The position numbers and the translations under genes are program-made. This document shows positions 5,801 through 30,933 of a DNA stretch of 32,480 nucleotides, piece after piece. The notes under the pieces are model-generated. The model had not been told where the DNA came from. It saw only the letters and a program-made list of their open reading frames with translations, and ran no database searches. How positions within the stretch are numbered: the stretch's first letter is position 1; each line of letters begins with the position of its first letter. This DNA is from an uncultured Clostridia bacterium (GTDB lineage Bacteria > Bacillota > Clostridia > Christensenellales > Borkfalkiaceae): assembly GCA_944368215.1 (NCBI GenBank), contig CALVWX010000005.1, forward strand, positions 1 to 32,480. The letters are read 5' to 3'.

Positions 5801-5986
5801 ATTATGTTTTGCCCCAAAACTGCGCTTTTGGGGCAAAGGCCCCAATTTGCGAACCCTTTCGCCTCAGCACAGTGAATTGCCGCGACTATTTTTATATTAG
5901 GGCTATCTTAAGGTCGCGGCAAGAGCGCGTGGCGCTTAAAATAACGGCGGTTTGTGTACGGCCGCCAGCGCACAAACCGCGTTAAT
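5801..5986 (+). repeat. Structured repeat family A, copy A1
   Basis: Five hairpins in fixed order. P1 is a 12-bp perfect stem TTTGCCCCAAAA (5808-5819/5826-5837) with six-base loop CTGCGC. P2 is the small GCG...CGC region near 5849. P3 is GCCGCGAC/GTCGCGGC (5879-5886/5913-5920) with a 26-base loop containing AGGGCTA. P4 is AGCG/CGCT (5924-5936). P5 is GCGGTTTGTG/CACAAACCGC inside TAAC...GTTA (5942-5984), with GGCC in the loop. The same plan with different stem sequences recurs at 13370, 24275 (minus) and 30742. It lies just upstream of the Na/Pi transporter promoter. Function unknown; it may be an RNA or a mobile repeat. Confidence 0.7.
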
Positions 5987-6005
5987 GATTTTTATTTTAC
6001 ATTTA

Positions 6006-6036
6006 ATTGACAAACCTGTTACAAAGCTGTTACAAT
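6006..6036 (+). promoter_or_regulatory. Promoter with PHO-box-like 11-bp repeats upstream of the Na/Pi transporter
   Basis: TTGACA (6007-6012), 18-bp spacer, TACAAT (6031-6036). CTGTTACAA occurs at 6016 and again at 6027, exactly 11 bp apart, and TTGACAA at 6007 is a third, weaker unit in phase. PhoB/PhoP sites are 11-bp direct repeats (CTGTCAT-like in Enterobacteria, TTAACA-like in Bacillus). The downstream gene is a phosphate transporter, which supports phosphate control. Confidence 0.6.
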
Positions 6037-6072
6037 TAATATTGCAAAATATACTATGGAGAGAAAATTCAG

Positions 6073-7794
6073 ATGAGTATCGATGGCGTTCTTCAGATTG
6101 TCTACGCTCTGTTCTACCTTCTCGGCGGCATAACCGTGTTCATGATCGGCATGGACATTTTGGGTTCCAATCTCGAAAAAGCTGCGGGCAGCAAAATGCG
6201 CAGCCTCATCGGCAAGGCCACCAAAAACAAATTTCTCGGCATCGGCACAGGTACGGTAATCACGGCTATAATCCAGAGTTCGTCGGCAACCACCGTCATG
6301 GTCGTCGGCTTTGTCAATATCGGCCTCATGACGCTCACCCAGGCCACGTCCATTATAATGGGCGCCAACATCGGCACTACGATAACGGCCTTCATTTCCG
6401 CACTGTCGATGGGCAATTTCGAACTCGACATAACCGCCGTGTTCGCCCTCATCGCATTCATAGGCTTGATGATGACGCTCTTTGCCAAAGAGGAAAAGAA
6501 CAAGCGTATAGGCTATATCCTCGCCGGTCTCGGCATGATATTCGTCGGCCTTTACACAATGTCTTTCTCGGTTTCCAACCTCACCGAAACCCCGGGCGAG
6601 GTGCGCGACGCAATAGTCAATATGTTCGCGTCGATAGGCAATAATAAGACTACGCTCACGTGGGAAATCCCCGTGCTCTTCCTTTTGGGGCTCGTATTGA
6701 CGGGCATAATGCAGTCCTCGTCGGCCGTCACGGCAATAGTCATAACGCTGGCGAGCGAAGGCCTCATCAGCATCCATATGGCGATATTCATAGTGCTCGG
6801 CACTAACATAGGCACGTGCTTCACGGCAGTAATCTCGTCTATAGGTACCACTACAAACGCCAAGCGCGCCGCATGCATTCACCTTTGTTTCAACATAATA
6901 GGTTGTATAATTTTCTCTATTCCCACAATAATATGGGGCCGCCAGATATCTGAATTTCTCGAATATATCATGCCCGGCAACGTAACGTGGCAGATAGCTA
7001 TTTTCCATCTGTTCTTCAACGTAACCACAACGCTCATTCTGATGTGGTTTATTCCTCAGCTCGTCAAGCTTTCAACCATTATCGTGCGGGACAAGAAGGG
7101 CGGTAAAAACGAGGAAGAGGGCGAAAAAGACGAAATGCTCGACATGCGCCTGCTCAAAACTCCAGCAATCGCAGTCGGTCAGGCCCGCAAGGAAATCGTC
7201 AAGATGGGTCAGATAGCCTTCTCTAATTATAAGCTCGCAGTAAATATGCTTCTCAGTTACGACATAAGCAAAAAGTCGGAGTTTGCAGAAAACGAAAAGC
7301 GCATCAACGAACTCAATAAATACATTACGCAGTTCCTCGTAAAGCTCTCTTCCGAAGATATCTCAGATATAGACGAAAGTAAAGTTTCTTCTTTCTATCA
7401 CGTCACAAGCGATATTGAGCGTATAGGCGACTACGCCGAAAACATCGTCGAATATACCGAGGAAATGCGCAAAACCAACGCTAAATTTTCTGAAAGCGCC
7501 GTAGCCGAAATCAACGAAATGGACGGGTATCTTTCCGAGCTGTATAAAAATGTCGAAATGGCTTTCGCAAACCATAATTTAAGCTATTCGCAGAATATAG
7601 ATATGGCGGAAAGATCCGTAGACTTAATGTGCGAAAAGATGAAGGAAGCCCATATCAGCCGCACAAACGAAGGGCTGTGCACTCCCGAGGCCGGTTCGGT
7701 TTATCTCCAGCTTGCAGTCAATATGGAGCGTATCGGCGATCATATGAACAATATTGCCAACTCAATCAAGGCGTACGTCCAGCCCGATTCATGA
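6073..7794 (+). CDS. Na/Pi-cotransporter family protein (NptA type) with C-terminal PhoU-like domain
   Basis: 573 aa. Residues 1-340 form the duplicated transporter core: each half carries the signature QSSS (about 68-71 and 214-217) followed by GANIGTT or GTNIGTC. The cytosolic part (about 355-565) is helical, with two PhoU-like repeats (SDIERIGDYAENI and VNMERIGDHMNNI). The family moves inorganic phosphate with sodium across the membrane; the PhoU-like tail is thought to sense or tune transport. ATG at 6073 follows GGAGAG. Monocistronic, with a terminator at 7862. A PHO-box-like promoter suggests induction by low phosphate. Many Clostridia carry this gene; export or signalling roles are also possible. 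Confidence 0.92.
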   Translation: MSIDGVLQIVYALFYLLGGITVFMIGMDILGSNLEKAAGSKMRSLIGKATKNKFLGIGTGTVITAIIQSSSATTVMVVGFVNIGLMTLTQATSIIMGANIGTTITAFISALSMGNFELDITAVFALIAFIGLMMTLFAKEEKNKRIGYILAGLGMIFVGLYTMSFSVSNLTETPGEVRDAIVNMFASIGNNKTTLTWEIPVLFLLGLVLTGIMQSSSAVTAIVITLASEGLISIHMAIFIVLGTNIGTCFTAVISSIGTTTNAKRAACIHLCFNIIGCIIFSIPTIIWGRQISEFLEYIMPGNVTWQIAIFHLFFNVTTTLILMWFIPQLVKLSTIIVRDKKGGKNEEEGEKDEMLDMRLLKTPAIAVGQARKEIVKMGQIAFSNYKLAVNMLLSYDISKKSEFAENEKRINELNKYITQFLVKLSSEDISDIDESKVSSFYHVTSDIERIGDYAENIVEYTEEMRKTNAKFSESAVAEINEMDGYLSELYKNVEMAFANHNLSYSQNIDMAERSVDLMCEKMKEAHISRTNEGLCTPEAGSVYLQLAVNMERIGDHMNNIANSIKAYVQPDS

Positions 7795-7861
7795 TTTTGT
7801 CAAAGGCGTGCCGCCGCGTAAGCGGAGGCAGCCCAAAATATCCCCACCCATCCGGGGAATA

Positions 7862-7894
7862 AAAAACACCGCCGCGGCGGTGTTTTTCTTTTTG
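7862..7894 (+). terminator. Terminator after the Na/Pi transporter
   Basis: CACCGCCG/CGGCGGTG palindrome flanked by A6 and followed by TTTTTCTTTTT. It could act in both directions. Confidence 0.85.
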
Positions 7895-8145
7895 TAAAAC
7901 AAAGTTTATTTAAAGCCTGCATGTGCGCGGCGCCTCGTGCATGCGGCCATGATATTTGCTGCGAATTTTTACGTTTCCCCGCATATATGGCGCGGTTAAC
8001 GACATTTTTTGCCGCGCTTTTCAGCGCCGGTTAAGTTGTGGCGTCAGCTTTGCTCTGCCGTTTTTCGCTGGCTGTTGTAAAATTTTGCCGATTTTTATGT
8101 GCATATCACATTTTTTATTTGTCGTCGGCCGCGGCTTCCAAATTG
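7895..8145. other. Intergenic stretch without a recognised gene
   Basis: About 250 bases between the transporter terminator and the MarR promoter. Mixed GC-rich and T-rich sequence. No ORF with a plausible SD, no tRNA and no family A/B/C repeat was seen. Confidence 0.5.
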
Positions 8146-8174
8146 TTGACAAATCAACCATATAAGTATATAAT
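8145..8174 (+). promoter_or_regulatory. Promoter of the MarR-degV operon, with a small palindrome on the -35 box
   Basis: TTGACA (8146-8151), 17-bp spacer, TATAAT (8169-8174). GTTGA-CAAA-TCAAC (8145-8158) is an inverted repeat covering the -35 box and could be an autoregulatory MarR operator; the short arms make this tentative. Confidence 0.7.
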
Positions 8175-8203
8175 TTCTTCATAATATTTTCGGGCGGCTC
8201 CTT

Positions 8204-8647
8204 ATGGAAGACTTGTTTGAAAGGTTTACTTTAAGCATTTTAAAACTCAATAAGCTCGTTCAGCGCATAAAGGTATACGAAATGAAAAAATTCGGCCTCA
8301 AGTCGGTTCATGTAATGTGCCTTTATTATATGAATAACCATCGCGAAGGCGTTACCGCCGGCGAACTTGTAAAAATCACTCTCGAAGACAAGGCAGCAAT
8401 CTCCCGCGCGCTCGCCACCATGCGCGAAAAAGGTTACGTCGAGTACGACCCGGCCTCGCACAATGCCGCGGCAAAACTCACGCCGGAGGGCATAAAACTC
8501 GCCGAGTACATTGTCGGCAGGGCGTCCTCAGCCGTCAATGCGGGGAGTGCGGATTTTTCTGATGAACAGCGCGATTTTTTCTATAAATCGCTCGTCACCA
8601 TATCTGATAACCTCGAAAATTATTACGACAATTTAAGCAAAAAATAA
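8204..8647 (+). CDS. MarR-family transcriptional regulator
   Basis: 147 aa, typical for MarR. A winged helix-turn-helix spans roughly residues 40-110: MNNHREGVTAGELVKITLEDKAAISRAL reads as the recognition region and MREKGYVEYDP... as the wing. Flanking helices would form the dimer interface. It probably binds the palindrome over its own -35 box and represses itself and the downstream DegV gene, which begins 12 bases later. The ligand is unknown. The SD is poor (GGCGG some distance before the ATG), and the leader predicted from the promoter is only about 23 nt. Confidence 0.88.
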   Translation: MEDLFERFTLSILKLNKLVQRIKVYEMKKFGLKSVHVMCLYYMNNHREGVTAGELVKITLEDKAAISRALATMREKGYVEYDPASHNAAAKLTPEGIKLAEYIVGRASSAVNAGSADFSDEQRDFFYKSLVTISDNLENYYDNLSKK

Positions 8648-8659
8648 AGCGGAGTATCT

Positions 8660-9508
8660 ATGATTAAAATTCTGGTCGACTCTGGTTGCGATATCGAAAA
8701 AGATCAGGCGCAATCTCTCGGCATAACCGTTCTGCCGTTTTCCGTACGCTTCGGCGACGAGGAATACCTCGACGGCTTCACCCTTTCCCATGAGCAGTTT
8801 TTCGAAAAACTCATCGAAAACGCCGAACTTCCCCAAACCAGCCAAATTAACCAATTCACCTTCGAGGAAAAATTTTCTTCGCTCACCGCCGACGGAAGCG
8901 ATGTCATCGCAATTACCATTTCCTCCAAGCTGTCCGGCACATATTCTTCGGCTGTAAAAGCCGCAAAAAAGTTCAGTGGAAAAGTCTTCGTAATCGACAG
9001 TCTCAACGCCTGCATCGGCGAAAGAATTCTTCTCGACTACGCCATCCGCCTCGTCGACGAAGGTAACCTTACGACCTCTCAGATAGCGGATGAGCTCAAC
9101 GCCAAAAAGGTCAAAATTCAGCTTCTGGCCGTTCTGGATACGTTAAAGTATTTAAGAAAGGGAGGCAGAATCTCTTCTGTCGCCGCCGTCGCGGGCGAAA
9201 TGCTCTCCATTAAGCCCGTAATTTCGGTCGTGGGCGGCGAGGTTAAGCTCGTCGGCAAGGCCATCGGCTCGCGGAAGGGCAACAATCTTTTAAACCAGCT
9301 CGTCGCCAAATGCGGAGGCATAGATTTCTCCATGCCGTACGTTTTAGGTTATTCGGGGCTTTCCGATGCGTTTTTAAAGAAATACATAACCGACAGCGCC
9401 AACCTCTGGAAGGGCAAGGCCGAAAGTATTCCTTATTATCTCATCGGCAGCACTATAGGTACGCACGTCGGCCCCAACGCCATCGCCGTCGCATTTTTCG
9501 CCAATTAA
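8660..9508 (+). CDS. DegV family fatty-acid-binding protein
   Basis: 282 aa, the family's normal length. DegV/FakB proteins bind a fatty acid and present it to the kinase FakA for phosphorylation and entry into phospholipid synthesis. Visible family features: N-terminal VDSGCDI (usually TDSxxDL), SQINQFTFEEKF near residue 60, the loop ISSKLSGTYSSA near 95, and the conserved LKYLRKGGRIS near 165. SD GGAG precedes the ATG at 8660. It is cotranscribed with the MarR regulator, consistent with lipid-responsive control, but no fakA is present here. Which fatty acid it prefers cannot be read from sequence. Confidence 0.9.
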   Translation: MIKILVDSGCDIEKDQAQSLGITVLPFSVRFGDEEYLDGFTLSHEQFFEKLIENAELPQTSQINQFTFEEKFSSLTADGSDVIAITISSKLSGTYSSAVKAAKKFSGKVFVIDSLNACIGERILLDYAIRLVDEGNLTTSQIADELNAKKVKIQLLAVLDTLKYLRKGGRISSVAAVAGEMLSIKPVISVVGGEVKLVGKAIGSRKGNNLLNQLVAKCGGIDFSMPYVLGYSGLSDAFLKKYITDSANLWKGKAESIPYYLIGSTIGTHVGPNAIAVAFFAN

Positions 9509-9520
9509 CATAAATTTATC

Positions 9521-9557
9521 AACGCCGCGCAAATTTTTAATTTGCGCGGCGTTTTTT
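9521..9557 (+). terminator. Terminator of the MarR-degV operon
   Basis: Stem AACGCCGCGCAAAT with complement (9521-9553), followed by TTTTTT. Confidence 0.88.
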
Positions 9558-9636
9558 AACAACATTCCTTACATACAATTAATTCCTTACTTTAATCGAA
9601 CCGGCAACCCATCATTTGCCATTGTGGGCGTTTATG

Positions 9637-9673
9637 CAAAAAACGGCGCGGCAGTTTTAAAACTGCCGCGCCG
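9637..9673 (-). terminator. Terminator of the small membrane protein gene
   Basis: Minus-strand 30-base palindrome (arms CGGCGCGGCAGTTTT) followed by TTTTTTG, 21 bases after the stop codon at 9694. Confidence 0.85.
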
Positions 9674-9693
9674 AATAATAATTTTTTACAATT

Positions 9694-10275
9694 TTATGTA
9701 TTATTTGTATTAATTGTGTTTGTATTAATTGTATTATCTGGTTTATCTGTATTATTAATTTGTGCCCCGGTATTTGTGCTGCCACCAGTTTTTTGCGCCT
9801 TCAGTGTATTGATTTTGCGCTTAATATCTTCGGGTTCACGCAAGTATTTCACTCTGTAAAGGGTATTTGTTCTGTCGAATATTCTCAAAACGCCTCTGTC
9901 GAGGATCGACCGCATGGAGGTATATGCGCTTGTCTGTCCGTTCGTGCGCACTTCGTCCAAATCGGTAAAGCTCAATTTGTTCCATTTTCTGCCGGAGAAG
10001 AAGTACAGCGCGCATTCGTCAATTTTTATGCACTCTTCGGGAGTTAAAAAGTAATTAATAGACTCAAGAATGCACATCAGCAAAAATACCGCTGAAATTA
10101 CTATTATAAGAGCAAAAAGCCCGCTCGCATTCGCGTAAAAAATTATGCTCAGCGTTAGAATTATTATCCACATCAGCGCAAAAAGTCCTATAGCAAGCAA
10201 AAACGAGCGTTTTTTATTCCCTATTGTCTCGGCCGTAGTCAAAACGGTTTTATCAAAATTTTTTTCAGCATTCAT
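9694..10275 (-). CDS. Hypothetical membrane protein with PH-like region and Asn/Thr-rich tail
   Basis: 193 aa. Two hydrophobic helices (about residues 25-48 and 52-75) form a hairpin anchor. They are followed by a roughly 85-residue beta-rich region (ECIKIDECALYFFSGRKWNKLSFTDLDEV...) resembling the bacterial PH-like domains found after such anchors; this is a resemblance, not an identification. The last 25 residues are low-complexity NNT/INTNT repeats encoded by an iterated attaattgt pattern, which may vary in length by slippage. There is no SD: the ATG is nine bases after TATAAT, so the mRNA would be nearly leaderless. No operon partner. Confidence 0.75.
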   Translation of the reverse strand: MNAEKNFDKTVLTTAETIGNKKRSFLLAIGLFALMWIIILTLSIIFYANASGLFALIIVISAVFLLMCILESINYFLTPEECIKIDECALYFFSGRKWNKLSFTDLDEVRTNGQTSAYTSMRSILDRGVLRIFDRTNTLYRVKYLREPEDIKRKINTLKAQKTGGSTNTGAQINNTDKPDNTINTNTINTNNT

Positions 10276-10284
10276 TATATAATA

Positions 10285-10312
10285 ATTATACGCCTTTTGC
10301 GCCTCCCGTCAA
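10285..10312 (-). promoter_or_regulatory. Promoter of the 9694-10275 gene (near-leaderless)
   Basis: Minus strand TTGACG (10312-10307), 16-bp spacer, TATAAT (10290-10285); the ATG begins nine bases later. Confidence 0.6.
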
Positions 10313-10379
10313 GCGCTTTAAGCTTTCACGTCGATTTCACTGTTTATCTTGCGCAAAATTATTTAACCTGTACGGGAGT

Positions 10380-10556
10380 AAACGAACAAAAGCGTGCACC
10401 TGCGCAAGCAGGAGCTTGCGTAAGTGAAGTTTGCTTTGCGCGGAGCGCACAAATAAGTTCAATAATCTCGCGCAAAACCGTGGCTTTTGCGCGAAAGAGG
10501 AGCCGCAGGCGTAAAAAGCAAACAAGCCGGGAAAATCCCGGCTTGTTGCAAAATTC
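10380..10556. repeat. Hairpin-rich repeat family B, copy B1
   Basis: About 177 bp matching copy B2 at 10667. Hairpins in order: GCGCAAG/CTTGCGT; TGCGC/GCGCA; TCGCGCAAAA/TTTTGCGCGA; and a terminal CAAGCCGGGA/TCCCGGCTTG. On the minus strand the terminal hairpin is followed by TTTGCTTTTT, so it could terminate minus-strand transcripts. Conserved blocks between copies include AAACGAACAAAAGCGTGCAC. The short ORFs across it are not convincing genes. Confidence 0.65.
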
Positions 10557-10666
10557 ATACTGTGCGATGTGTTATTAGAGAACATATAATGCTACGCTAT
10601 TTTTACTTTTTTTACTCTCGCTAAGAGTTTTCGACGTGCTTGCACGGAGAAAACTCCATACAGAAG

Positions 10667-10838
10667 CAAACGAACAAAAGCGTGCACCTGCTTATGCAGG
10701 GGCTTGCATAAGTGAAGCTTGCATTGCGCGGAGCGCACAAGTTCATAAGCCTCGCGCAAAACCGTGGCTTTTGCGCGAAAGAGGAGCCGCAGGCGCAAAA
10801 GCAAACAAGCCGGGGAAATCCCGGCTTGTTGCAAAATT
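10667..10838. repeat. Hairpin-rich repeat family B, copy B2
   Basis: Second copy of the B1 repeat. Most blocks are near-identical, but the first stem differs by compensating changes (CTTATGCA/TGCATAAG here, GCGCAAG/CTTGCGT in B1). An extra hairpin (GAGTTTTC...GAAAACTC, 10626-10655) stands just upstream. Confidence 0.65.
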
Positions 10839-10853
10839 CGCCTTGCGGCGACG

Positions 10854-11005
10854 TGGTGAAGATGATAGGACTCTCCGCTTGAGCGCGGCGCACGGTTGAC
10901 AGCCCAAGCCGAGGGCTGTCAAGTCGGCGGTAGAGCCCGCCGACCTGCGGCAAAAAAACTATGTTTTTAGCCTTGCCTCCCCTCGAGTCCTATAGCGTCT
11001 TACCA
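10854..11005. repeat. Element bounded by inverted copies of the tRNA-Val 3' end
   Basis: Positions 10854-10873 (TGGTGAAGATGATAGGACTC) are identical to 11054-11073, the 3' end of the tRNA-Val gene including CCA. At 10985-11005 a diverged inverse copy (GAGTCCTAT...TTACCA) closes the segment. Inside are two perfect hairpins: TTGACAGCCC/GGGCTGTCAA (10896-10922) and GTCGGCGG/CCGCCGAC (10923-10944). It may be a remnant of an element that used the tRNA 3' end as attachment site, or a tRNA-derived repeat. Confidence 0.55.
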
Positions 11006-11051
11006 AGAAAAATGCAGGGAAGTCTGTACCAAAAGTACAGACTTCCCTGCA
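11003..11051 (-). terminator. Terminator of the tRNA operon
   Basis: Minus-strand 19-bp perfect stem (AATGCAGGGAAGTCTGTAC and complement, five-base loop) followed by TTTTCTT. It begins two bases after the encoded CCA of tRNA-Val. Confidence 0.9.
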
Positions 11052-11053
11052 TT

Positions 11054-11130
11054 TGGTGAAGATGATAGGACTCGAACCTACGACCTCTACCATGTCAAGG
11101 TAGCGTTCTAACCAACTGAACTACACCTTC
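11054..11130 (-). tRNA. tRNA-Val (anticodon GAC)
   Basis: 77 nt with encoded CCA. Acceptor GAAGGTG/CATCTTC, anticodon arm CTACC-TTGACAT-GGTAG giving GAC, T-arm GTAGG-TTCGAGT-CCTAT. Last gene of the four-tRNA operon. Confidence 0.95.
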
Positions 11131-11201
11131 ATGTGTTTCCCCGCGGATAAAGGGGGAAATAATGTAAACGGGAATACAACTGAAAAGCTGCACTCCCGTA
11201 G

Positions 11202-11276
11202 TGGTGACCCGTACGGGACTCGAACCCATGATACCACCGTGAAAGGGTGGTGTCTTAACCGCTTGACCAACGGGCC
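11202..11276 (-). tRNA. tRNA-Glu (anticodon TTC)
   Basis: 75 nt with CCA. Acceptor GGCCCGT/ACGGGTC, anticodon arm CCACC-CTTTCAC-GGTGG giving TTC, T-arm ATGGG-TTCGAGT-CCCGT. Confidence 0.95.
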
Positions 11277-11348
11277 TTAAATGTGATTGGTACGGGAATA
11301 TCCCGCAGACAATCTGTATATAATCGCCTTTGCGGCGCATTTTTTAAA

Positions 11349-11426
11349 TGGTAGCGACGGGTGGATTCGAACCGCCGACCTGCCGGGTATGAACCGGCCG
11401 CTATAGACCAACTAAGCTACGTCGCC
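11349..11426 (-). tRNA. tRNA-Met, elongator (anticodon CAT)
   Basis: 78 nt with CCA. Acceptor GGCGACG/CGTCGCT, anticodon arm GCCGG-TTCATAC-CCGGC. General resemblance to Firmicute elongator tRNA-Met rather than tRNA-Ile2. The T-stem GGCGG/CCACC has a central C-A mismatch. Confidence 0.9.
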
Positions 11427-11452
11427 AAAAAGTGAACGTGCGTAAACATAAT

Positions 11453-11530
<78 letters not shown>

Positions 11531-11560
11531 ATAAAGTGTTGCGCACGTTCAAGCTTTATT

Positions 11561-11589
11561 ATCATATAGTAATCGCGCATTTTTGTCAA
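11561..11589 (-). promoter_or_regulatory. Promoter of the tRNA operon
   Basis: Minus strand TTGACA (11589-11584), 17-bp spacer, TATGAT (11566-11561), about 30 bases before tRNA-fMet. Confidence 0.8.
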
Positions 11590-11651
11590 CTGTTTTTTGG
11601 CAAATTATGAAAAAAATCGCAAGAATTATTTTTTAAAAATTTTTTTTAATA

Positions 11652-11681
11652 TTGCCAAATAGCGCGCGCTTGTGGTATAAT
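11652..11681 (+). promoter_or_regulatory. Promoter of tilS giving a predicted leaderless mRNA
   Basis: TTGCCA (11652-11657), 18-bp spacer, extended -10 TGGTATAAT (TATAAT at 11676-11681), then CATTCT and the ATG at 11688. Confidence 0.65.
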
Positions 11682-11687
11682 CATTCT

Positions 11688-12971
11688 ATGAATATAAATC
11701 TCTCCCGCCTGGCGGGCAAAAACATATGCGTGGCCTGTTCCGGCGGCAGGGATTCGATGGCGCTGTTGCATTATATATTAAAAAACGGCCCTTCATCCGG
11801 CATAACTCTTTCGGCCGTCAACTGTGACCACGGCATGCGCGGCGAAGACTCCGCGCGCGACAGCGCGTTCGTTTCAGATTACTGCAAAAAGTCAGGCATA
11901 CCCGCCGCATTTTTCAAAGCTTCGGGTTTTAAAAGCGAAGGGGAGGCCCGCGCATGGCGCTACTCATGCTTCGCGCAGGCGGCTGAAAAATTCAACGCCG
12001 CCGTGGCAACGGCGCATCACCTCGGTGACAATGCCGAAACGGTTCTCTTCAATCTCGCGCGCGGTTGCGCTCTTTCGGGCGCGTGCGGCATTTCGGAAGG
12101 CACTGTCCGCTCGGCTTTGCCCGACGGCCGCACGGCTGAGTTTCAGGTCGTTCGTCCGCTGCTCGATTGCTCGCGCGCACAGATAGATGAATATATCGCC
12201 GCAAACGGCGTTCCCTTTGTCGACGACGCAACAAATTTTTCCGACAAATATACCCGCAACTATATCCGCCACAACGTTCTTCCCGCCCTCGAAAAAGCCG
12301 TCCCCGGCGCGGCCGCAAGCATAAGACGGTTCTGCCGTCTCGCCGCAGAGGATGAAAGCTTTCTCTGTTCGCTCGCATCGGAAAAGTACGCCATATATCG
12401 GGGTGTATGCTATATTTACGACTGCTCCGAACGCCCCGTTTTCGGCCGCGCCGCCGCGGCGGTAGTCAGGGACGTTTACGGTAAAAAGAACTATACTTCC
12501 GCGCATATAGATTCGCTCTATGCCCTTCAGGGCGCAAAAGCGGGCAAAAAATTCTGTTTTCTCGGCCTTACGGCGTGGAGGGAGGAGGGCAGGATAGCCG
12601 TAACGCGCGATGATGAACGCCCCGCTCCCATGCCTTTCGGTCAATTCGCAGGCACATATGGCGCGGTCAATCTCAATATTTCCTTTTCCCCGCTCGGGGG
12701 CGCGCTGCGCTTCGACGCCGATAAAATCCCGCAAGGCGCAGTAATCCGCACGCGGCAGAACGGCGATAAGTTTACAAAGTTCGGCGGCGGCACCAAGAGC
12801 CTCGGCGACTTCCTGACCGATAAAAAAGTCGCTCCGCACCTGCGCGACCGACTGCCCGTCATCGCCTGCGGCAATATAATTTACGCCGTCTGCGGCGTCG
12901 AAATTTCCGACCGGATAAAGGTGGACGGGGACACGAAGAATACGGGTTACATTCTCTGCAAAGCTGACTAA
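11688..12971 (+). CDS. tilS: tRNA(Ile)-lysidine synthase TilS
   Basis: 427 aa. It adds lysine to C34 of tRNA-Ile2 (CAU) using ATP, switching its identity from Met to Ile; essential in most bacteria. The PP-loop SGGRDS sits at residues 18-23, and HHLGDNAETVLFNLARG, typical of TilS, at about 105. The C-terminal third (from about residue 320, ending ...VKVDGDTKNTGYILCK) fits the TilS C-terminal domain with its GDKFTKFGG motif. A longer frame opens at a TTG at 11652, but that is inside the promoter, so the ATG at 11688 is used. No SD; the start codon is six bases after TATAAT. It heads tilS-MIF-like-hpt-DUF378. Confidence 0.93.
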   Translation: MNINLSRLAGKNICVACSGGRDSMALLHYILKNGPSSGITLSAVNCDHGMRGEDSARDSAFVSDYCKKSGIPAAFFKASGFKSEGEARAWRYSCFAQAAEKFNAAVATAHHLGDNAETVLFNLARGCALSGACGISEGTVRSALPDGRTAEFQVVRPLLDCSRAQIDEYIAANGVPFVDDATNFSDKYTRNYIRHNVLPALEKAVPGAAASIRRFCRLAAEDESFLCSLASEKYAIYRGVCYIYDCSERPVFGRAAAAVVRDVYGKKNYTSAHIDSLYALQGAKAGKKFCFLGLTAWREEGRIAVTRDDERPAPMPFGQFAGTYGAVNLNISFSPLGGALRFDADKIPQGAVIRTRQNGDKFTKFGGGTKSLGDFLTDKKVAPHLRDRLPVIACGNIIYAVCGVEISDRIKVDGDTKNTGYILCKAD

Positions 12972-12992
12972 ATTTAATTGGAGGCCATATAT

Positions 12993-13334: not shown

Positions 13335-13369
13335 TAAAGGACACAAATTTGATAAAAGATATAAAAATT

Positions 13370-13555
13370 ATTACGTTTTCACCCAAAATCACGCTTTTGG
13401 GTGAAAGGCCCCGATTTGCGAACCCTTCGCCTCGGCAGGTGAAGCGGGTGCAATTATAAACTGTCAGGGCACTTAGGATTGCGCCCGCGAGGGCAGCGCC
13501 CTTCAAATTAACGGCGAATTGGTGCATGTCCTCTAATGCACAATGAGCGTTAATA
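13370..13555 (+). repeat. Structured repeat family A, copy A2
   Basis: Same five-hairpin plan as A1 with compensating changes. P1 TTTCACCCAAAA/TTTTGGGTGAAA (13377-13388/13395-13406), loop TCACGC. P3 GCGGGTGCAAT/ATTGCGCCCGC (13444-13454/13478-13488), loop with CAGGGCA. P4 GGGC-AGC-GCCC. P5 from TTAACG to CGTTAA, with TGCAT/ATGCA and loop GTCCTC. It lies between the MIF-like gene and hpt, inside the operon. Confidence 0.7.
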
Positions 13556-22250: not shown

Positions 22251-22253
22251 AAA

Positions 22254-22295: not shown

Positions 22296-22303
22296 TTTTA
22301 AAA

Positions 22304-23683: not shown

Positions 23684-23706
23684 ATTATAAAAACCTCTGT
23701 AAAAAA

Positions 23707-23754
23707 TTGACTTAAAATCTATTTCATTATATAATATTTAAGTAAACTAATCAA
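23707..23754. promoter_or_regulatory. Overlapping divergent promoters of argH and ruvC
   Basis: Plus: TTGACT (23707-23712), 17 bp, TATAAT (23730-23735). Minus: TTGATT (23754-23749), 17 bp, TATAAT (23731-23726). The two -10 boxes overlap by two bases in ATTATATAAT, so polymerase can occupy only one at a time. Confidence 0.7.
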
Positions 23755-23782
23755 GTTAAATGCGCAAAAGACAGGCAAATTT

Positions 23783-24280
23783 ATGATAATTCTGGGCATA
23801 GACCCCGGCTACGGCACAATGGGCTACGGCGTCATTGAAAAACTTAAAAACGGCAACATAGTCCCCGTCGATTACGGCGTGGTAAAAACGCCGCCTTCCG
23901 AAAGTTTTCCTGTCCGCCTCGCCATGCTCGAAGACGGCCTGAATAAAATTTATGCAAAGTTCAAGCCCGAAGAAATAGCGGTGGAAGAACTCTTCTTCAC
24001 CAAAAACGTCACAACGGGCATACCCGTCGCGCACGCAAGGGGGGTAATACTCGCCTCTGCCGTCAGGTACTGCGGCAGGCTCTACGAATACACCCCTATG
24101 CAGATAAAACAGGCGCTCACTGGTTACGGCAAGGCCGATAAGGTGCAGATGATGCACGTGGTAACTTCGCTTCTGCATCTAAAATCCATTCCCCGCCCGG
24201 ACGATGCGGCCGACGCACTCGCCGTCGCGCTATGCCACGCCCACACCAACAGGTTCGGGGATATGTTCGGAATTCGTTAA
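23783..24280 (+). CDS. ruvC: Crossover junction endodeoxyribonuclease RuvC
   Basis: 165 aa. It cleaves Holliday junctions by paired nicks once RuvAB has migrated them. Catalytic acids are visible in ILGIDPGYGTMGYG (Asp7), AVEELFF (Glu near 68) and the C-terminal DDAADALAVALCH pair. The SD is weak (AGG before the ATG), and the leader from the shared promoter region is about 40 nt. Its final codon and stop (CGT TAA) also form one arm of structured repeat A3. It starts the ruvC-ruvA-ruvB-queA-tgt series, with unusually long gaps filled by repeats. Confidence 0.95.
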   Translation: MIILGIDPGYGTMGYGVIEKLKNGNIVPVDYGVVKTPPSESFPVRLAMLEDGLNKIYAKFKPEEIAVEELFFTKNVTTGIPVAHARGVILASAVRYCGRLYEYTPMQIKQALTGYGKADKVQMMHVVTSLLHLKSIPRPDDAADALAVALCHAHTNRFGDMFGIR

Positions 24281-24456
24281 CGAAAGTCTCGGCAGGCCGT
24301 GCCTGCGACTTTCGTTAGTTTGGGGAGCCAGCTCCCCTTTGCGCGATTTATAAGGGCCCACTATTATATAATCGCGCAAATTCCCCACGGTGAGCCGCAA
24401 GTTTGCGCAAATTGTGGCCTTTGCCCCAAAAGCGCGGTTTTGGGGCAAAACGTAAT
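24275..24456 (-). repeat. Structured repeat family A, copy A3 (minus strand)
   Basis: Read on the minus strand: P1 TTTGCCCCAAAA with complement, loop CCGCGC. P2 GCGCAAACTTGCG. P3 TTTGCGCGAT/ATCGCGCAAA, loop with GGGCCC. P4 GGGGAGC-TG-GCTCCCC. P5 TAACGAAAGTC/GACTTTCGTTA, loop with GGCC. It fills the ruvC-ruvA gap in antisense orientation, and its final GTTAACG overlaps the ruvC stop. Confidence 0.7.
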
Positions 24457-24523
24457 TATGCGCCGAAGGCGCGACTTCGCTTGCAACATAATCGATGCGC
24501 CGGCGGAGCTTACCTTCCCCTTT

Positions 24524-24576
24524 GTCATCGTGAGCCTAGTCGAAAGATCTCGGAGCGATAGCGACGGACAAAAAGA
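24524..24576. repeat. Short repeat family C, copy C1
   Basis: TTTGTCATCGTGAGC...AGTCGAAAGATCTCGGAGCGATAGCGACGGACAAA. Shares TGTCAT-N-NTGAGC and AGTCGAAAG with 26426 and 27673. This TGTCATnnTGAGC type of intergenic palindrome is common in many bacterial genomes. Confidence 0.6.
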
Positions 24577-24604
24577 AAAAATTATAACTTTAAAGCAATA
24601 GTAT

Positions 24605-25198
24605 ATGATAGGTTATTTGAAAGGCAAACTGTTATATTCCACTGCCGATACGGCATTAATCGAAGTCAACGGCGTCGGGTACGAGGTATATTGTTCGGCT
24701 TCGGCGTTCTCCAAAATGACGGTGGGAAACGCGTGCGAAGTGTACACCTACCTTCAGGTCAGCGAACAAAACGGCATAACGCTATACGGTTTTTCCTCTG
24801 TCGAGGAAAAAAACATGTTCTTAAAGCTCATTTCCGTCTCGGGCGTCGGTCCCAAAATGGGCATAGCCGTGCTCTCTTCAATGGACAGCTCGTCCCTCGC
24901 CGCGGCAATCGCCACGCAGGACGTAAAGCGCCTTTCCTCCGTCAAGGGCCTCGGCAAAAAAACGGCAGAGCGCATTATTTTAGAGCTCCGCGAAAAAGTC
25001 GGTGCCCTTCCCCAGCCTGCCGCATCAAAGGGCGTTGCCCCCAATATATTGCCTGACGACGGCGATGAAGACGCCATCGTCGCCCTTCAGACCCTCGGCT
25101 TCACCCGCGCCGAAAGCGTCAAAGCCGTGGCCGCCGCAAAGGCAAACGGCGCCAAGGGCATAGAAGAAATTATCATGCAGGCCCTTAAAAGCATTTGA
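24605..25198 (+). CDS. ruvA: Holliday junction branch migration protein RuvA
   Basis: 197 aa with the three RuvA domains: N-terminal OB fold (residues 1-62, MIGYLKGKLLYSTADTALIEVNGVGYEV), tandem helix-hairpin-helix (ISVSGVGPKMGIAVL and LSSVKGLGKKTAERIILEL, about 75-130), and the C-terminal RuvB-contact domain (about 148-197, VALQTLGFTRAESVKAV). It tetramerises on four-way junctions and loads RuvB. Start ATG at 24605; no good SD is seen. Confidence 0.95.
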   Translation: MIGYLKGKLLYSTADTALIEVNGVGYEVYCSASAFSKMTVGNACEVYTYLQVSEQNGITLYGFSSVEEKNMFLKLISVSGVGPKMGIAVLSSMDSSSLAAAIATQDVKRLSSVKGLGKKTAERIILELREKVGALPQPAASKGVAPNILPDDGDEDAIVALQTLGFTRAESVKAVAAAKANGAKGIEEIIMQALKSI

Positions 25199-25343
25199 GA
25201 GCAAGGGCATAGGGCACAGGTAATTGGGAATAGGGAAGGTAAAATGGCATGCGGCATGCGCCGCCTGCTGACCTACCATTCAGATACTCTCTTTCCATCC
25301 CTAACCCCTAATCCCTAAAAATCCTAATCCCCAAGGTACACTA
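25199..25343. repeat. Imperfect inverted repeat in the ruvA-ruvB gap
   Basis: GGTAATTGGGAATAGGGAAGG on one side is met by CCATCCCTAACCCCTAATCCC on the other, around an inner GGCATGCGGCATGCGCCGCC segment. It is low-complexity and transcribed with the operon. Function unknown. Confidence 0.45.
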
Positions 25344-26414
25344 ATGTTTTTCGACGACGAAGAATATACAACTCAAGACGAAGAGCGGCTGGTTCAGTCG
25401 ACCAAAGGCGAGTACGACGCTGAAGAAAACGTCCTGCGCCCCAAAACGCTGGATGCTTACGTCGGTCAGAGCAAGGTAAAGGAAAATCTGACTGTCTACA
25501 TGAACGCCGCCAAAAAGAGGGGGGAGGTGCTTGAGCACGTCCTTTTATACGGCGCGCCCGGCCTCGGCAAAACCACCCTCGCGCACATAATCGCCAACGA
25601 AATGGGCGGCCAGCTTAAAATGACTTCCGCTCCAGCCATAGAGCGCAGCGGCGACCTCGCCGCCATTTTAACAAACCTGAATGAAGGCGATGTGCTGTTT
25701 ATAGACGAAATCCACCGCCTCAATCACAGCGTGGAAGAAATTCTGTATTCCGCCATGGAAGACTACGCCCTCGACATAATCGTCGGCAAGGGCCCTTCGG
25801 CGCGCAATATCCGCTTTTCGCTTAAAAAATTCACTCTCATCGGCGCGACCACGCGCGCTGGCATGATTGCCAATCCCCTGCGCGACCGATTCGGCATAGT
25901 CTGCCGCCTCGAAATGTACACGCCCGAAGAGCTCAGGGAAATTGTCACACGCTCGGCCAGAACGCTGGGCATAGCCATCGATGACGACGCCGCGGCCGAA
26001 ATTTCCAAACGCTCGCGCGGCACTCCCCGAATAGCCAACCGCCTTTTAAAGCGCGTGCGCGACTTTTCAACCGTAAGCGGCAGTTCGTCCGTTACGTTAA
26101 AGGACGCGCGCTTCGCACTCGGCCGCATGGAAATTGACGAACTCGGCCTCGACGAGATTGACCGCAGTCTTTTAAAGGCAATGATAGTCAAGTTCGACGG
26201 AAAGCCCGTCGGTCTTGAGACGCTCGCCGCCACCATAAACGAGGACGCGGGCACCATAGAGGACGTCTACGAACCTTACCTTCTCCAGCTCGGCTTTATC
26301 GCCCGCACGCCCCGCGGCAGAGTAATATTGAAGGGCGGTTACGAACACCTCGGCTATACGCCCACCGTCTCCCAGTCCGAACAGATAACCCTGTTCGACA
26401 AAAAACAGGATTGA
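25344..26414 (+). CDS. ruvB: Holliday junction branch migration ATPase RuvB
   Basis: 356 aa AAA+ motor, hexamer driving branch migration. Walker [12 protein letters not shown] near 70-80, Walker [10 protein letters not shown] near 118, sensor 1 GATTRAGM near 170, sensor 2 arginine in the [15 protein letters not shown] helix near 230, then a C-terminal winged helix ending [14 protein letters not shown] before the ATG acts as SD. The usual LRPK-xx-xYVGQ start block ([14 protein letters not shown]) begins near residue 29. Confidence 0.96.
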
Positions 26415-26425
26415 TTAATCCCCGG

Positions 26426-26544
26426 TTGTCATACTGAGCAGAGCATGGCGACAGCCATGCGCAGTCGAAAGTATCTTGCCTGATAAGCAACCAAACAAGA
26501 TCCTTCGGCTCCGTTCGGGTTGCTCACTGCGCTCAGGATGACAA
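26426..26544. repeat. Repeat family C, copy C2 (long palindromic form)
   Basis: Ends TTGTCATACTGAGC and GCTCAGGATGACAA are inverted repeats. Inside is the hairpin GCATGGC-GACA-GCCATGC and a CTTCGGCTC segment. MITE-like in shape; it fills the ruvB-queA gap. Confidence 0.65.
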
Positions 26545-26576
26545 AGGAAAAAATACACAATTTGCGTTAAAACAGT

Positions 26577-28962
<2,386 letters not shown>

Positions 28963-28990
28963 ATTAAAAGTGCGCCGTTTGGCAAAGCGT

Positions 28991-29047
28991 CCCCTCAAAC
29001 TAACGGCAAGTTGGTTTGCGGCCTCCGGCAAACAACTTGCGTTGATA
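28991..29047 (+). repeat. Structured repeat family A, fragment A5
   Basis: Only the 3' module of family A: CTCAAACTAACG, then GCAAGTTG(G)TTTGC/GCAAACAACTTGC with loop GGCCTC, then GTTGA. Upstream hairpins P1-P4 are absent. It lies between tgt and the yajC promoter. Confidence 0.6.
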
Positions 29048-29095
29048 GCTCTCAGCGAAAATTAAGTGAAAATGCATTTTGGTTTGCAAAATCAC

Positions 29096-29124
29096 TTGCC
29101 AATTTCTGCCAAAAATATTATTAT
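29096..29124 (+). promoter_or_regulatory. Candidate yajC promoter
   Basis: TTGCCA (29096-29101), 17-bp spacer, TATTAT (29119-29124). The -35 touches a hairpin AAGTGA...TCACTT (29064-29096). Confidence 0.5.
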
Positions 29125-29158
29125 TAAAAGGAAATAAATATCTCGGAGAATTATAACA

Positions 29159-29641
29159 ATGTTCAATCTGATTCTTTCAAGCGACGGTTCGGGCAGCAGC
29201 AACTGGATGTCCTATGTGCTTCTCGCCGTGCTCGTCGTTGCCATCATCGCCATGCTGGTAATCAGCACCCGCCGCAATAAAAAGCGCCAGCAGGAAGCCG
29301 AAAAGCTCATCAACGCCGTTAAACCCGGCAACAAGGTTAAAACCATAGGCGGCATATGCGGCATAGTCGTTGAAGTCGACGACGAAGAAAACACCTTCGT
29401 CCTCGAAACGGGAAGCGAAGCTTCTGGCAAGAGCTATATGAAGTTCGACAAGCAGGCCATCTATCAGACCGACGCGGTCGTTGAGCCCGACAATTCCAAG
29501 GAAGAAAAGGGTAAGGAAGAGTCCGGGCACGAAGGCGAAGAACCCTTCGGCGACGTTTCCGTCGACGCAGAACAGACAGCCGGGGGGACCAAGGCCGAAG
29601 AAAAGGCCGAAGAGTCCAAAGATACAACCGAAAATTCTTAA
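29159..29641 (+). CDS. yajC: Preprotein translocase subunit YajC
   Basis: 160 aa. One transmembrane helix (about 18-40) is followed by the RRNKKRQQEAEKLINAVKPGNKVKTIGGICGIVVEVDDEENTFVLETG domain typical of YajC, which associates with SecDF at the Sec translocon. Residues about 105-160 form a long, acidic Glu/Lys/Ser-rich tail that is not part of the core family and makes the protein longer than usual. SD CGGAGA. The Sec link fits the secD gene at the end of the window. Confidence 0.92.
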   Translation: MFNLILSSDGSGSSNWMSYVLLAVLVVAIIAMLVISTRRNKKRQQEAEKLINAVKPGNKVKTIGGICGIVVEVDDEENTFVLETGSEASGKSYMKFDKQAIYQTDAVVEPDNSKEEKGKEESGHEGEEPFGDVSVDAEQTAGGTKAEEKAEESKDTTENS

Positions 29642-29654
29642 AGTTCTAAATTGA

Positions 29655-29697
29655 TTTCCCTCCGCATACGGTAGTGTTAAGCGGAGGGGATTTTTTT
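29655..29697 (+). terminator. Terminator after yajC
   Basis: TCCCTCCGC/GCGGAGGGG hairpin with a 15-base loop, followed by ATTTTTTT. A second GC hairpin (GCGC..CCGCC/GCGGC..GCGC) follows at 29699-29728. Confidence 0.8.
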
Positions 29698-29781
29698 GCG
29701 CGCGCCGCCTTTTAAGCGGCGTGCGCAAGGGTATACCGCCCTCCGTATGACCCGCCGCGGCGGGCCGGAAGGGGTGGTTTT

Positions 29782-30150
29782 ATGATTAAAGATATTTTCA
29801 TTCAGGTCAGCAAGGCGGCGTGCGCCTCGGTGGTGTTTGTGCTCGTTTATTCGCTAATATTCGCGGGGATAATGGGGCTTTTCCCCGTCTCGCCGCAGGT
29901 AATAAAACCTGTCAATCAGGTGTTTAAAATACTGTCGATAGTTTTCGGCGGAATGCTTTTCCTCCGCGGCGAACGCGGCCTTCTAAAGGGTGCCGTTTTA
30001 GGCATTTCGGCAGTTATTCAGACGTGGCTGCTCTTTTCCACAATCGCCTGCTCGTTCTCTATCGGCTGGACACTCCTCCTTGAAATTATAATCGGTGCCT
30101 TTGCGGGCGCCATAACGGGTGTAATCGCCGTCAACTTAAAAAGGGCGTAA
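29782..30150 (+). CDS. TIGR04086-type small membrane protein
   Basis: 122 aa with four hydrophobic segments (about 12-33, 46-60, 67-90, 96-118) and few polar residues, matching the small membrane proteins (TIGR04086) often found between yajC and the SCIFF genes in Clostridia. Assignment rests on context, size and topology rather than a sharp motif. Function unknown. An SD-like GGAAGGGG lies before the ATG. Confidence 0.75.
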   Translation: MIKDIFIQVSKAACASVVFVLVYSLIFAGIMGLFPVSPQVIKPVNQVFKILSIVFGGMLFLRGERGLLKGAVLGISAVIQTWLLFSTIACSFSIGWTLLLEIIIGAFAGAITGVIAVNLKRA

Positions 30151-30213
30151 AGGATTAAAGCTTTTAAATATAGCGGTAAAGCCAAAAAGCCGCAAAATTA
30201 ATTACAAAAAGGC

Positions 30214-30242
30214 TTGATTTTTGTGCGCGCATAATCTATAAT
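30214..30242 (+). promoter_or_regulatory. Promoter of scfA
   Basis: TTGATT (30214-30219), 17-bp spacer, TATAAT (30237-30242), leader about 37 nt with CGGAGG. Confidence 0.7.
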
Positions 30243-30285
30243 ATAATAAAATAATATAATTACGTATATCGGAGGATATTGCAAG

Positions 30286-30444
30286 ATGATTAAAACAATA
30301 GCAAAACCCGCACAGAAAAAAGTTACCGCCTGCGGTGAATGCAGATCCACCTGCCAGTCGGCATGCAAAACCAGCTGCACCGTCGGCAACCAGAGCTGCG
30401 AAAGAATAACCAGAGAACAGAATCCCGAAAAGGACGTAAAGTAA
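30286..30444 (+). CDS. scfA: SCIFF ranthipeptide precursor ScfA
   Basis: 52 aa. Six cysteines within residues 16-38 (C16, C19, C23, C27, C31, C38), matching the 'six cysteines in forty-five residues' peptide and its core CQSACKTSCTVGNQSC. The radical SAM enzyme ScfB joins Cys sulfurs to the beta/gamma carbon of other residues (Thr or similar) to form thioether links; the peptide is near-universal in Clostridia and implicated in signalling. SD CGGAGG before the ATG. A weak terminator-like hairpin (GGAGCAGA/TCTGCTCC, 30469-30488) follows. Unusually, about 500 bp of structured sequence separates it from scfB. Confidence 0.95.
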   Translation: MIKTIAKPAQKKVTACGECRSTCQSACKTSCTVGNQSCERITREQNPEKDVK

Positions 30445-30740
30445 TTTAAATTTATAAAAAACTCACCGGGGAGCAGATAAATCTGCTCCTCATTTATTGT
30501 CAAATCGCTCAATCCGTACTCGCTTTGCTCCGTGCGGATTGCAGCGAAATTATTTTGTCGGACAACGCTTAACGGCAGAAGTAAATTCCGCCTGCGTTGT
30601 CTCGGCGTTATTCGTCTGAAAGTGATTTTTAATTAATTTGCGCCGCAAGGCGAATTTATTTCGCCGCAGCGGCTCGCAGCGAACGTAAGGGAATCGGCCG
30701 CTTTGGTCGCCGTTCGCGCGTATAATGCGTTCACTGTTCT
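30445..30740. other. Hairpin-dense gene-free stretch between scfA and scfB
   Basis: Contains, in order: GGAGCAGA/TCTGCTCC; CAATCCG/CGGATTG; GACAACGC/GCGTTGTC; GCCGC/GCGGC enclosing GGCGAA/TTCGCC; and CGAACG/CGTTCG enclosing a GGCC-containing segment. No ORF with an SD. It leads directly into family A copy A4. Confidence 0.6.
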
Positions 30741-30741
30741 C

Positions 30742-30933
30742 GCAAGGCAAAACAGCACACTGTGCTGTTTTGAGAAAAACCTTGCTCGTCTCAATTTGCG
30801 CATACCTGCGGCTCGCCGTGGTGAATTTGCGCGATTAAATAAAAGAGGGCTACATCAAAATCGCGCAAAGAGGAGCAGGCTCCTCAAATAACGCAAAATT
30901 GGTGCATGGCCTCTAATGCACAATTTTGGTTAA
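30742..30933 (+). repeat. Structured repeat family A, copy A4
   Basis: P1 is replaced by a longer variant, CAAAACAGCACA/TGTGCTGTTTTG enclosed by GCAAGG/CCTTGC. P2 GCGCATACCTGCG. P3 TTTGCGCGATT/AATCGCGCAAA (30826-30836/30859-30869), loop GAGGGCTA. P4 GAGGAGC-AG-GCTCCTC. P5 TAACGCAAAATTG...CAATTTTGGTTA, with TGCAT/ATGCA and loop GGCCTC. It ends 11 bases before the scfB ATG. Confidence 0.7.

Follow-up and report, generated by a model that had tools for sequence, protein, structure and literature searches.

Elements of the REP and IS200/IS605-derived kind show an orientation bias with respect to replication, and the BOX elements of Streptococcus pneumoniae have a modular build. The element analysed here resembles BOX elements, likened by description only, in being a modular, hairpin-forming dispersed repeat. 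With the bcr1-bcr3 repeats of the Bacillus cereus group (PMC3446304) it shares an intergenic location, many copies per genome, restriction to one group and a MITE-like character, and with bacterial MITEs (PMC10969869) its size, intergenic place, direct repeats (at few copies here) and lineage-limited amplification. REP/BIME sequences with TnpA-REP (PMC8266576) are likewise short intergenic hairpins with a stem bulge near a conserved tetranucleotide, a tandem arrangement and a folded single-strand substrate. Integron attC sites (PMC2727003) recall its last hairpin, P5, by a conserved structure with free sequence, an unpaired G after AAC (in the TAAC type of P5) and serial insertion.

The window, a stretch of 32,480 nucleotides from an uncultured Clostridia bacterium, carries several copies of what we interpret, with a probability of somewhat under 60 per cent, as a mobile DNA element, non-autonomous and about 190 bp long, which among the sampled genomes is restricted to one uncultured Clostridia family. 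The preliminary description had placed four full copies and a fragment of a five-hairpin element here, and R1, a covariance model built from 20 sequences including window copies 1 and 3, matches all five. The features are as follows, P1 to P4 of copy 1 being read from the sequence.

5784-5985, + strand: full copy 1; R1 193.1 bits; P0-like AT hairpin, P1-P5, GTTAA at the end
5808-5837, + strand: P1 of copy 1; 12-bp stem, loop CTGCGC; covarying helix
5849-5862, + strand: P2 of copy 1; GCGAA/TTCGC; covarying
5877-5922, + strand: P3 of copy 1; TTGCCGCGAC...GTCGCGGCAA, with GGGC inside a long loop
5924-5936, + strand: P4 of copy 1; AGCG/CGCT
5942-5985, + strand: P5 of copy 1; TAAC, bulged G (5946), stem, GTTA, then A; R2 61.7 bits
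13304-13336, + strand: left flanking direct repeat of copy 2; 33 bp; end of the upstream reading frame (...NWGWNGSNF*)
13353-13553, + strand: full copy 2; R1 140.6 bits
13557-13589, + strand: right flanking direct repeat of copy 2; starts 3 nt past GTTAA
24277-24473, - strand: full copy 3; R1 167.1 bits
28987-29045, + strand: lone 3' part (P4 remnant and P5); R2 44.7 bits; R1 31.5 bits over 28929-29045
30742-30933, + strand: copy 4, P2-P5 of the family; R1 115.3 bits over 30760-30933

Copies 1-3 are complete. Copy 4 (30742-30933) is not, its P1 having been replaced by a foreign hairpin, the end of another repeat (GCAAGGCAAAACAGCACA..., about 30735-30790), which also interrupts copies L026 and L028:1809. 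The lone P5 has counterparts elsewhere, as about a dozen of the 64 P5 matches in the genome lack an adjoining P1-P3 (lists compared by eye). Single-stranded DNA folding gives z-scores of -5.06, -4.79, -7.06 and -6.18 for copies 1 to 4. Together with 41 blastn matches of copy 1 across its own genome and 54 strong matches (at least 77 bits) among the 82 R1 rows in this 1.67-Mb genome (G000), these scores indicate that the copies are not due to chance.

The covariance-model search thus confirmed a dispersed family, its copies lying in the intergenic regions of this gut lineage and present in 23 of the 25 genomes of the genus examined, with 0 to 61 matches per genome. In an order-wide sample (297 genomes, E 1e-6), matches were confined to the element's own family of Clostridia; a weak match outside it, in G029 at 24 bits, owes its pairing largely to P1 and an end hairpin. 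Known phages and plasmids gave no match to copy 1 at E 0.01. The preliminary description had not recognised the element as a described RNA or repeat class, and the Rfam comparison agrees as to RNA: at the gathering threshold Rfam 15 yielded four tRNAs only in the window and nothing on the copies, and when six copy-bearing loci were searched with relaxed settings, the four weak matches all lay outside the copies. A literature search, covering the accessible parts of publications, found none on the five-hairpin element.

Copies have diverged to a mean identity of about 71% in G000 (48 copies). For analyses across genomes we used a set of 140 copies, with exact duplicates, rows below about 77 bits and the interrupted copies L028:1809, L026 and L020 (100 to 140 bits) removed; relatives' copies were taken from the best-scoring matches listed, not every listed copy being included, so that decayed copies are under-sampled there. 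Among 119 compared, 46 of the 47 G000 copies and all four G001 copies form one supported group: the family is amplified lineage by lineage. Two marks of MITEs, dispersed copies and insertion polymorphism, are found, the latter in the variable copy number and in empty sites in the relative G001 at copies 1 and 2, the two of the four window copies that could be checked. The 33-bp repeat flanking copy 2 is single-copy in G001.

The 3' boundary is sharp, falling from 1.43 to 0.13 bits at GTTAA/GTGAA (43 G000 copies), and the 5' end is gradual. P5 ends are of two types, TAAC-G-stem-GTTA(A) and TCAC-G-stem-GTGA(A); the bulged G is present in 102 of 113 classifiable P5s, with 28 of 141 left unclassified. 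Terminal inverted repeats were sought by eye, and TTAACG/CGTTAA match in some copies only, not in the GTGAA types. Direct flanking repeats of variable length (16-75 bp) occur at 7 of 140 copies, the right one 1-7 nt past the element's end; at the other 133 none is convincing, and of 14 copies from G002, several young ones included, not one has a repeat that abuts the element. Eight of nine differences counted in the L052 flanking repeat are synonymous, an excess not expected of a duplication made by insertion and non-coding afterwards.

Left of P1, GTTAA or GTGAA lies within 39 nt in 31 of 140 copies (13.5 expected; shuffled maximum 28 in 500), the frequency in distant windows being 50/807. 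We read this as preferential insertion directly behind the P5 of an older copy. A motif fitted to copies already inspected occurs in 30/140 against 39/807 (p 1.6e-9). By eye, a left-hand P5 remnant often matches in type the P5 that belongs to the copy itself (L006, L007, L018, L022, L070, L090, L132), which partial loss from tandem duplications would also fit. Head-to-tail pairs of copies occur, with further head-to-tail sets in G270, G169 and G239. Tandem pairs are not in general fresh duplications: three of four compared were 73-76% identical, like random G000 copies; the fourth (L056), which a contig end truncates, shows no difference over the visible 50 nt. In several cases a copy adjoins the corresponding gene end in both of two species, with entire hairpins swapped between them.

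All five hairpins covary. This had been claimed for P1, P3, P4 and P5, and P2 can be added, 27 of 39 stem pairs being altered on both sides (6 of 10 in P3, 3 of 4 in P4). Paired cells amount to 95.9%, against 80.9% when shuffled and 31-44% when slid, and genus-wide covariation extends to 8 of 11 and 11 of 13 pairs. The P3 stems had been called perfectly paired; that of copy A2 contains one T.G pair. The alignments behind the counts of pair types, pair retention in G000, close copies, P5 types and fold recovery were fitted to R1, which favours pairing in those analyses; within them, 45 of 66 distinct G000 matches, interrupted copies included, retain at least 34 of 39 Watson-Crick pairs, and 16 of the remaining 21 are short of pieces, five of those being antisense matches of single stems. 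Among 17 pairs of close copies (at least 90% identity), uncompensated changes affect 0.8% of stem pairs and unpaired sites from P1 on differ by 5.5%. The idea that the P1-P2 junction pairs with the P3 loop as a pseudoknot was rejected, since a copy's own pairs did not outperform swapped pairs (permutation p 0.27, 20 copies).

The stem cells of 137 copies comprise 5078 Watson-Crick pairs, 70 G.T, 39 A.C and 77 others. G.T thus makes up 1.4% of canonical pairs, against 8.5% in tRNAs, the sole RNA class used as control (38/447, 22 tRNAs; p 5e-16). DNA parameters recover 77% of consensus pairs and RNA parameters 66% (133 copies, p 2e-10), + and - strands alike, and tRNAs show the reverse (64% with DNA, 72% with RNA). 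The excess of G.T over A.C across all stems (70:39) is in the direction expected from one-strand folding; without P1 the ratio is 31:22 (p 0.27). By a crude ORF-based gene call, the upstream gene lies on the same or opposite strand in 48 and 59 cases (p 0.33), the downstream gene in 47 and 62 (p 0.18), and both neighbours are same or opposite in 19 and 32 (p 0.09). The preliminary description had left folded RNA and single-stranded DNA side by side; because G.T is scarce, DNA parameters do better with the tRNA control reversed, and no gene orientation is significantly preferred, the evidence favours an element that would be kept as folded DNA more than as a working RNA. A coding role was rejected as well, since each of the six frames is open in somewhere between 8 and 61 copies, never in most of them. 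One forward frame is nevertheless open more often than chance would give, in 61 of 134 copies where letter shuffles give 7%.

Covariation had been taken as in itself the mark of selection on structure. In that form the claim is not supported: template switching in replication can also produce compensated changes, in one step, as documented for rRNA hairpins (PMC8794818). The copies might accordingly be functionless palindromic repeats whose stems hairpin-primed template switching keeps perfect with no structural selection, an explanation that we find rather unlikely. Near-absence of G.T intermediates speaks for it, being also what template-switch correction could leave, as do the 2:1 ratio of compensated to single changes even among the closest copies and the stem pairs that, at 85-90% identity, change nearly like unpaired sites (8.8% vs 9.8%, stem changes compensated only). 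Against it stand the hairpins' number and order, the P1 loop (CCACGC and kin), the junction AATTTG and the bulge in P5, all kept genus-wide and partly in other genera too, and the high pair retention in G000, where most of the poorer matches are incomplete; and loop-inverting switches are hardly seen, inverted forms of the commonest P1, P2 and P4 loops being absent save for one three-base loop. Loop-preserving switches are a possible source of compensated stem changes, and template-switch correction could lie behind part of the covariation. A structured non-coding RNA is unlikely, whether it be a family of dispersed small or regulatory RNAs or a SINE-like element spread by target-primed reverse transcription. 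Target-primed reverse transcription would give a precise 3' end, a gradual 5' end and variable duplications, which agrees with the sharp 3' end, the 5'-shortened copies and the flanking repeats, and covariation alongside conserved loops is what such an RNA would show; however, the share of G.T pairs is a sixth of that in tRNAs, the hairpins are recovered less well with RNA parameters, gene orientation bias is not significant, copy 1 lies upstream of a putative promoter (TTGACA) of the next gene, and 9 of the 25 genus genomes have 0-3 matches. The reverse transcriptase domain RVT_1 (PF00078), found in 11 of 25 genomes, was not detected in high-copy G000, G002, G006 and G016 (assemblies 92-95% complete), though it is present in high-copy G014.

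Other candidate mobilisers fared no better. The Y1_Tnp domain (PF01797) occurs in 7 of 25 genomes including G000 and was not found in high-copy G002, G006, G014 and G016; REP_ORF2-G2P, in 9 of 25, has no link to copy number; and an integron integrase (TIGR02249) scored over cut-off in none of the 25. The presence of none of the four (Y1 transposase, reverse transcriptase, integron integrase, G2P-type Rep) tracks copy number in these 25 genomes, which speaks against them as mobilisers. The missing integrase weighs against a gene-less integron-type cassette with P5 as its attC site, as do the unit's lack of a gene and the CAC...GTG, not AAC...GTT, edges of 81 of 123 P5s; in view of these we consider such a cassette very improbable, even with the AAC...GTT edges and unpaired G after AAC in the TAAC type, compared with the attC description in PMC2727003, and the head-to-tail joining after P5. 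A distinctly doubtful proposal is a 'hairpin cassette', a gene-less unit on whose P5, folded as single-stranded DNA, a host recombinase (e.g. XerC/D) would act. Like integron cassettes it would insert one after another behind older copies, though without an integron integrase, and whole hairpin modules would be swapped between copies.

For the non-autonomous mobile DNA element that we prefer, P5 would be the end that a putative enzyme recognises and attaches to nicked target DNA. Joining at the opposite end may be imprecise, yielding variable duplications and 5'-shortened copies. Extruded or single-stranded hairpins would play a part in movement and would for that reason be kept as DNA, their upkeep probably aided by template-switch correction and by the swapping of hairpin modules among copies. 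Several observations weigh against this reading: the candidate enzymes that do not track copy number, the many copies with no convincing flanking repeat, the synonymous differences in the L052 repeat, the frequent compensated stem changes at 85-90% identity, the hairpins swapped at shared gene ends and the left-hand P5 remnants of matching type.

As a natural example of very strong covariation at genome scale that points towards structure in DNA, not in RNA, the family is a warning for RNA discovery by covariation. It shows how far a repeat can diverge within one genome with most copies' hairpins still paired. Should the hypothesis on P5 prove right, it would also become possible to test how orphan hairpin repeats are mobilised. 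The hairpin cassette, if true, would be a third class of folded single-stranded DNA mobile element beside integron cassettes and IS200/IS605-REP.

Set against the known systems, the element differs from integron attC sites in having no integron integrase, no gene cassette and no conserved AAC/GTT. Unlike MITEs, most of its types have no end-joining terminal inverted repeats; it has one sharp end, and its flanking repeats are long and variable. In contrast to REP and IS200/IS605-derived elements it shows no significant replication-strand bias (62 of 138 flanks have a positive GC skew, p 0.27), and the Y1 transposase, present in G000, was not found in four other high-copy genomes. From bcr1-bcr3, compared by description, it is set apart by five separate covarying hairpins, almost exclusively Watson-Crick pairing and another clade. 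Its unit, 190 bp with five hairpins, is also unlike that of REP/BIME, and the two tetranucleotides form the base of its hairpin by pairing between themselves (TAAC/GTTA).

The four copies and the fragment of the repeat proposed in the preliminary description proved to be real, as all are matched in the window by R1, a covariance model of the whole element built from 20 copies retrieved from the source genome by blastn. The element reads, 5' to 3', P0 (a variable, small, AT-rich hairpin) and then P1 through P5. The window carries:

5784..5985 (+), copy 1
13353..13553 (+), copy 2
24277..24473 (-), copy 3
28987..29045 (+), fragment, a lone 3' part
30742..30933 (+), copy 4
30735-30790, foreign hairpin repeat, GCAAGGCAAAACAGCACA...TGTGCTGTTTTGAG...CCTTGC, substituting for P1 of copy 4
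~24520-24590 (-), another dispersed repeat, GAGATCTTTCGACT...CTCACGATGACAAAGGGG; its type recurs beside several other copies in the source genome
~10800-11000 and ~11200-11600, around the tRNA cluster, short stretches with many high-identity matches in related genomes (query 6500-6700, 6900-7300)

Copy 4 is a chimera in which P1 has been swapped for the terminal part of another hairpin repeat; repeats of this foreign type also lie within P2 of two further copies (loci L026 and L028:1809-2123). Copies are mixtures drawn from a limited, tabulated repertoire of P1, P2, P3, P4 and P5 types. In four species pairs, the right flank is alike up to the element (77-88%) and the hairpins are wholly different, reflecting either module exchange between copies or one spot hit twice.

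The covariance-model search proposed in the preliminary description was run on the 1.67-Mb source genome (E up to 1), giving 82 rows, 54 of them of at least 77 bits, and on its relatives. Matches occur in 23 of the 25 same-genus genomes examined, the source included (0 to 61 per genome, about 60 candidates being scored in each). Outside the family, one of 16 genomes gave a match, a weak one (E 3.6e-5), and in an even sample of the order, 17 of 297 genomes matched at E 1e-6, all from three genera of the element's own family. When named genomes were scanned with a 25-base pattern, seven contigs matched; they belong to three MAGs whose title is uncultured Clostridia bacterium, two of which bear the label 'Lapin'. 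No match was found in Rfam, nor in phage and plasmid records searched with copy 1, and literature searches found no paper on the element. A full copy is present on one 84-kb IMG/VR contig (L273:1379-1669). It lies within an open frame that has at its start, by our reading, a membrane-anchor-like peptide and a good ribosome site, as if the repeat might be translated at that locus; a REP_ORF2-G2P Rep and a GmrSD-type gene are nearby.

The covariation of the stems claimed earlier is borne out. In the 20-copy alignment, pairing holds in 95.9% of 772 cells, against a mean of 80.9% after shuffling; both sides have changed in 27 of 39 pairs (14.6 when shuffled), and shifting an arm 1-3 columns lowers pairing to 31-44%. 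With other species included, compensated changes affect 8/11 pairs of P5 and 11/13 of P1/P2. At least 34 of the 39 Watson-Crick pairs are retained in 45 of 66 distinct source-genome matches; the other 21 comprise 16 with missing pieces (five of which match single stems in antisense) and five chiefly mismatched.

Selection for structure and continuous template-switch correction would each yield this pattern. Hairpin-primed template switching, a process described in PMC8794818, would keep palindromic repeats perfect without selection on structure. Among 17 pairs of close copies (at least 90% identity), the stem pairs that differ amount to 2.3% (0.8% one-sided, 1.5% both-sided) and the differing unpaired sites, counted from P1 onward, to 5.5%. 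For 50 pairs of 85-90% identity, the values are 8.8% (2.0% one-sided) and 9.8%; stems therefore evolve almost as quickly as loops, nearly always by compensated change, a pattern that such switching alone could give. The commonest loops have no inverted forms, save one three-base loop, so loop-inverting switches are not operating; the hairpin-primed kind could account for part of the compensated changes.

The preliminary description allowed either folded RNA or single-stranded DNA; the evidence favours the latter. Stem cells of 137 full copies comprise 5078 Watson-Crick, 70 G·T, 39 A·C and 77 other combinations, whereas G·T makes up 38 of 447 canonical pairs in 22 tRNAs of the same stretches. 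When 133 copies are folded to minimum energy, single-stranded DNA parameters recover 77% of the consensus pairs and RNA parameters 66% (p 2e-10), equally on both strands; for the tRNAs the values are 64% and 72%. The z-score of copy 1 is weaker for RNA (-2.95) than for DNA (-5.06). P1 is missing from its minimum-energy DNA structure and present in the centroid. Copies show no significant preference with respect to GC skew or neighbouring-gene strand, with a slight tilt toward the opposite strand. Together, the Watson-Crick-rich stems, the folding and the lack of significant strand preference argue for pairing at the DNA rather than the RNA level. This reading is limited by the excess of G·T over A·C overall (70:39), which is not seen outside P1 (31:22), and terminators and other short, strong RNA hairpins may likewise be poor in G·U, our control being tRNAs.

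The relative G001 has no element at the places of copies 1 and 2, the two compared, on its syntenic contig. When 119 copies drawn from ten genomes are placed in a tree, 46 of 47 source-genome copies cluster with all four of G001 (support 100/100), those of G002 group with G016 (98/76), and those of G014 and G006 are intermingled; very short branches lead to some of the G002 copies. Copies thus multiply inside lineages. The 3' boundary is abrupt in the source genome (1.43 to 0.13 bits), where 39 of 43 copies with a recognisable end terminate in GTTAA or GTGAA, although in G002 the first base beyond still holds 0.85 bits; the 5' boundary, unlike the 3', is gradual.

Flank repeats scoring at least 12 occur at 10 of 140 copies (1.4 expected). 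Leaving out L056 and L123 (tandem-like neighbours) and L091 (weak match to a dispersed repeat), we accepted seven (L027, L019, L157, L052, window copy 2, L185, L025), six of them from the source genome. They measure 16 to 75 bp, the right repeat beginning 1 to 7 nt past the element; that of L157 is 39/39 identical, yet itself of dispersed type. By reading, the left repeat is the upstream gene's end at window copy 2, L052, L185 and L027. At L052 (source contig C31), the two gene ends differ at nine sites by our count, eight of them synonymous, as if derived from two coding alleles rather than one duplication. None of 14 G002 copies inspected has a repeat abutting the element. In the left flank of seven of these 14 (L134, L135, L138, L139, L140, L143, L147), directly before the element, stands another kind of palindromic repeat, CCTCCCCT...AGGGGAGG, whole or partial.

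Later units seem to insert behind older ones, because 31 of 140 copies have GTTAA or GTGAA in the 39 nt to the left of P1 (13.5 in shuffled windows; 50/807 in distant windows) and three of the four head-to-tail pairs compared are no more alike than random copies. Tandem duplication with partial loss would also explain the P5 remnant on the left, which, judged by eye, frequently matches the P5 of the copy itself in type.

Four candidate mobiliser families were surveyed in the 25 genus genomes; where a genome is incomplete, non-detection is not proof of absence. The Y1 transposase was found in the source genome and not in the high-copy G002, G006, G014 and G016; reverse transcriptase, and likewise REP_ORF2-G2P, was found in G014 and not in the source genome, G002, G006 or G016; integron integrase exceeded the cut-off in none of the 25.

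We therefore regard the repeat, with a probability of roughly 0.57, as a lineage-limited non-autonomous mobile DNA element of unusual anatomy, with five hairpins paired almost exclusively by Watson-Crick pairs. Although the membership tests for REP and for attC place the element outside both classes, its 3' end may function somewhat like REP hairpins and like attC hairpins.
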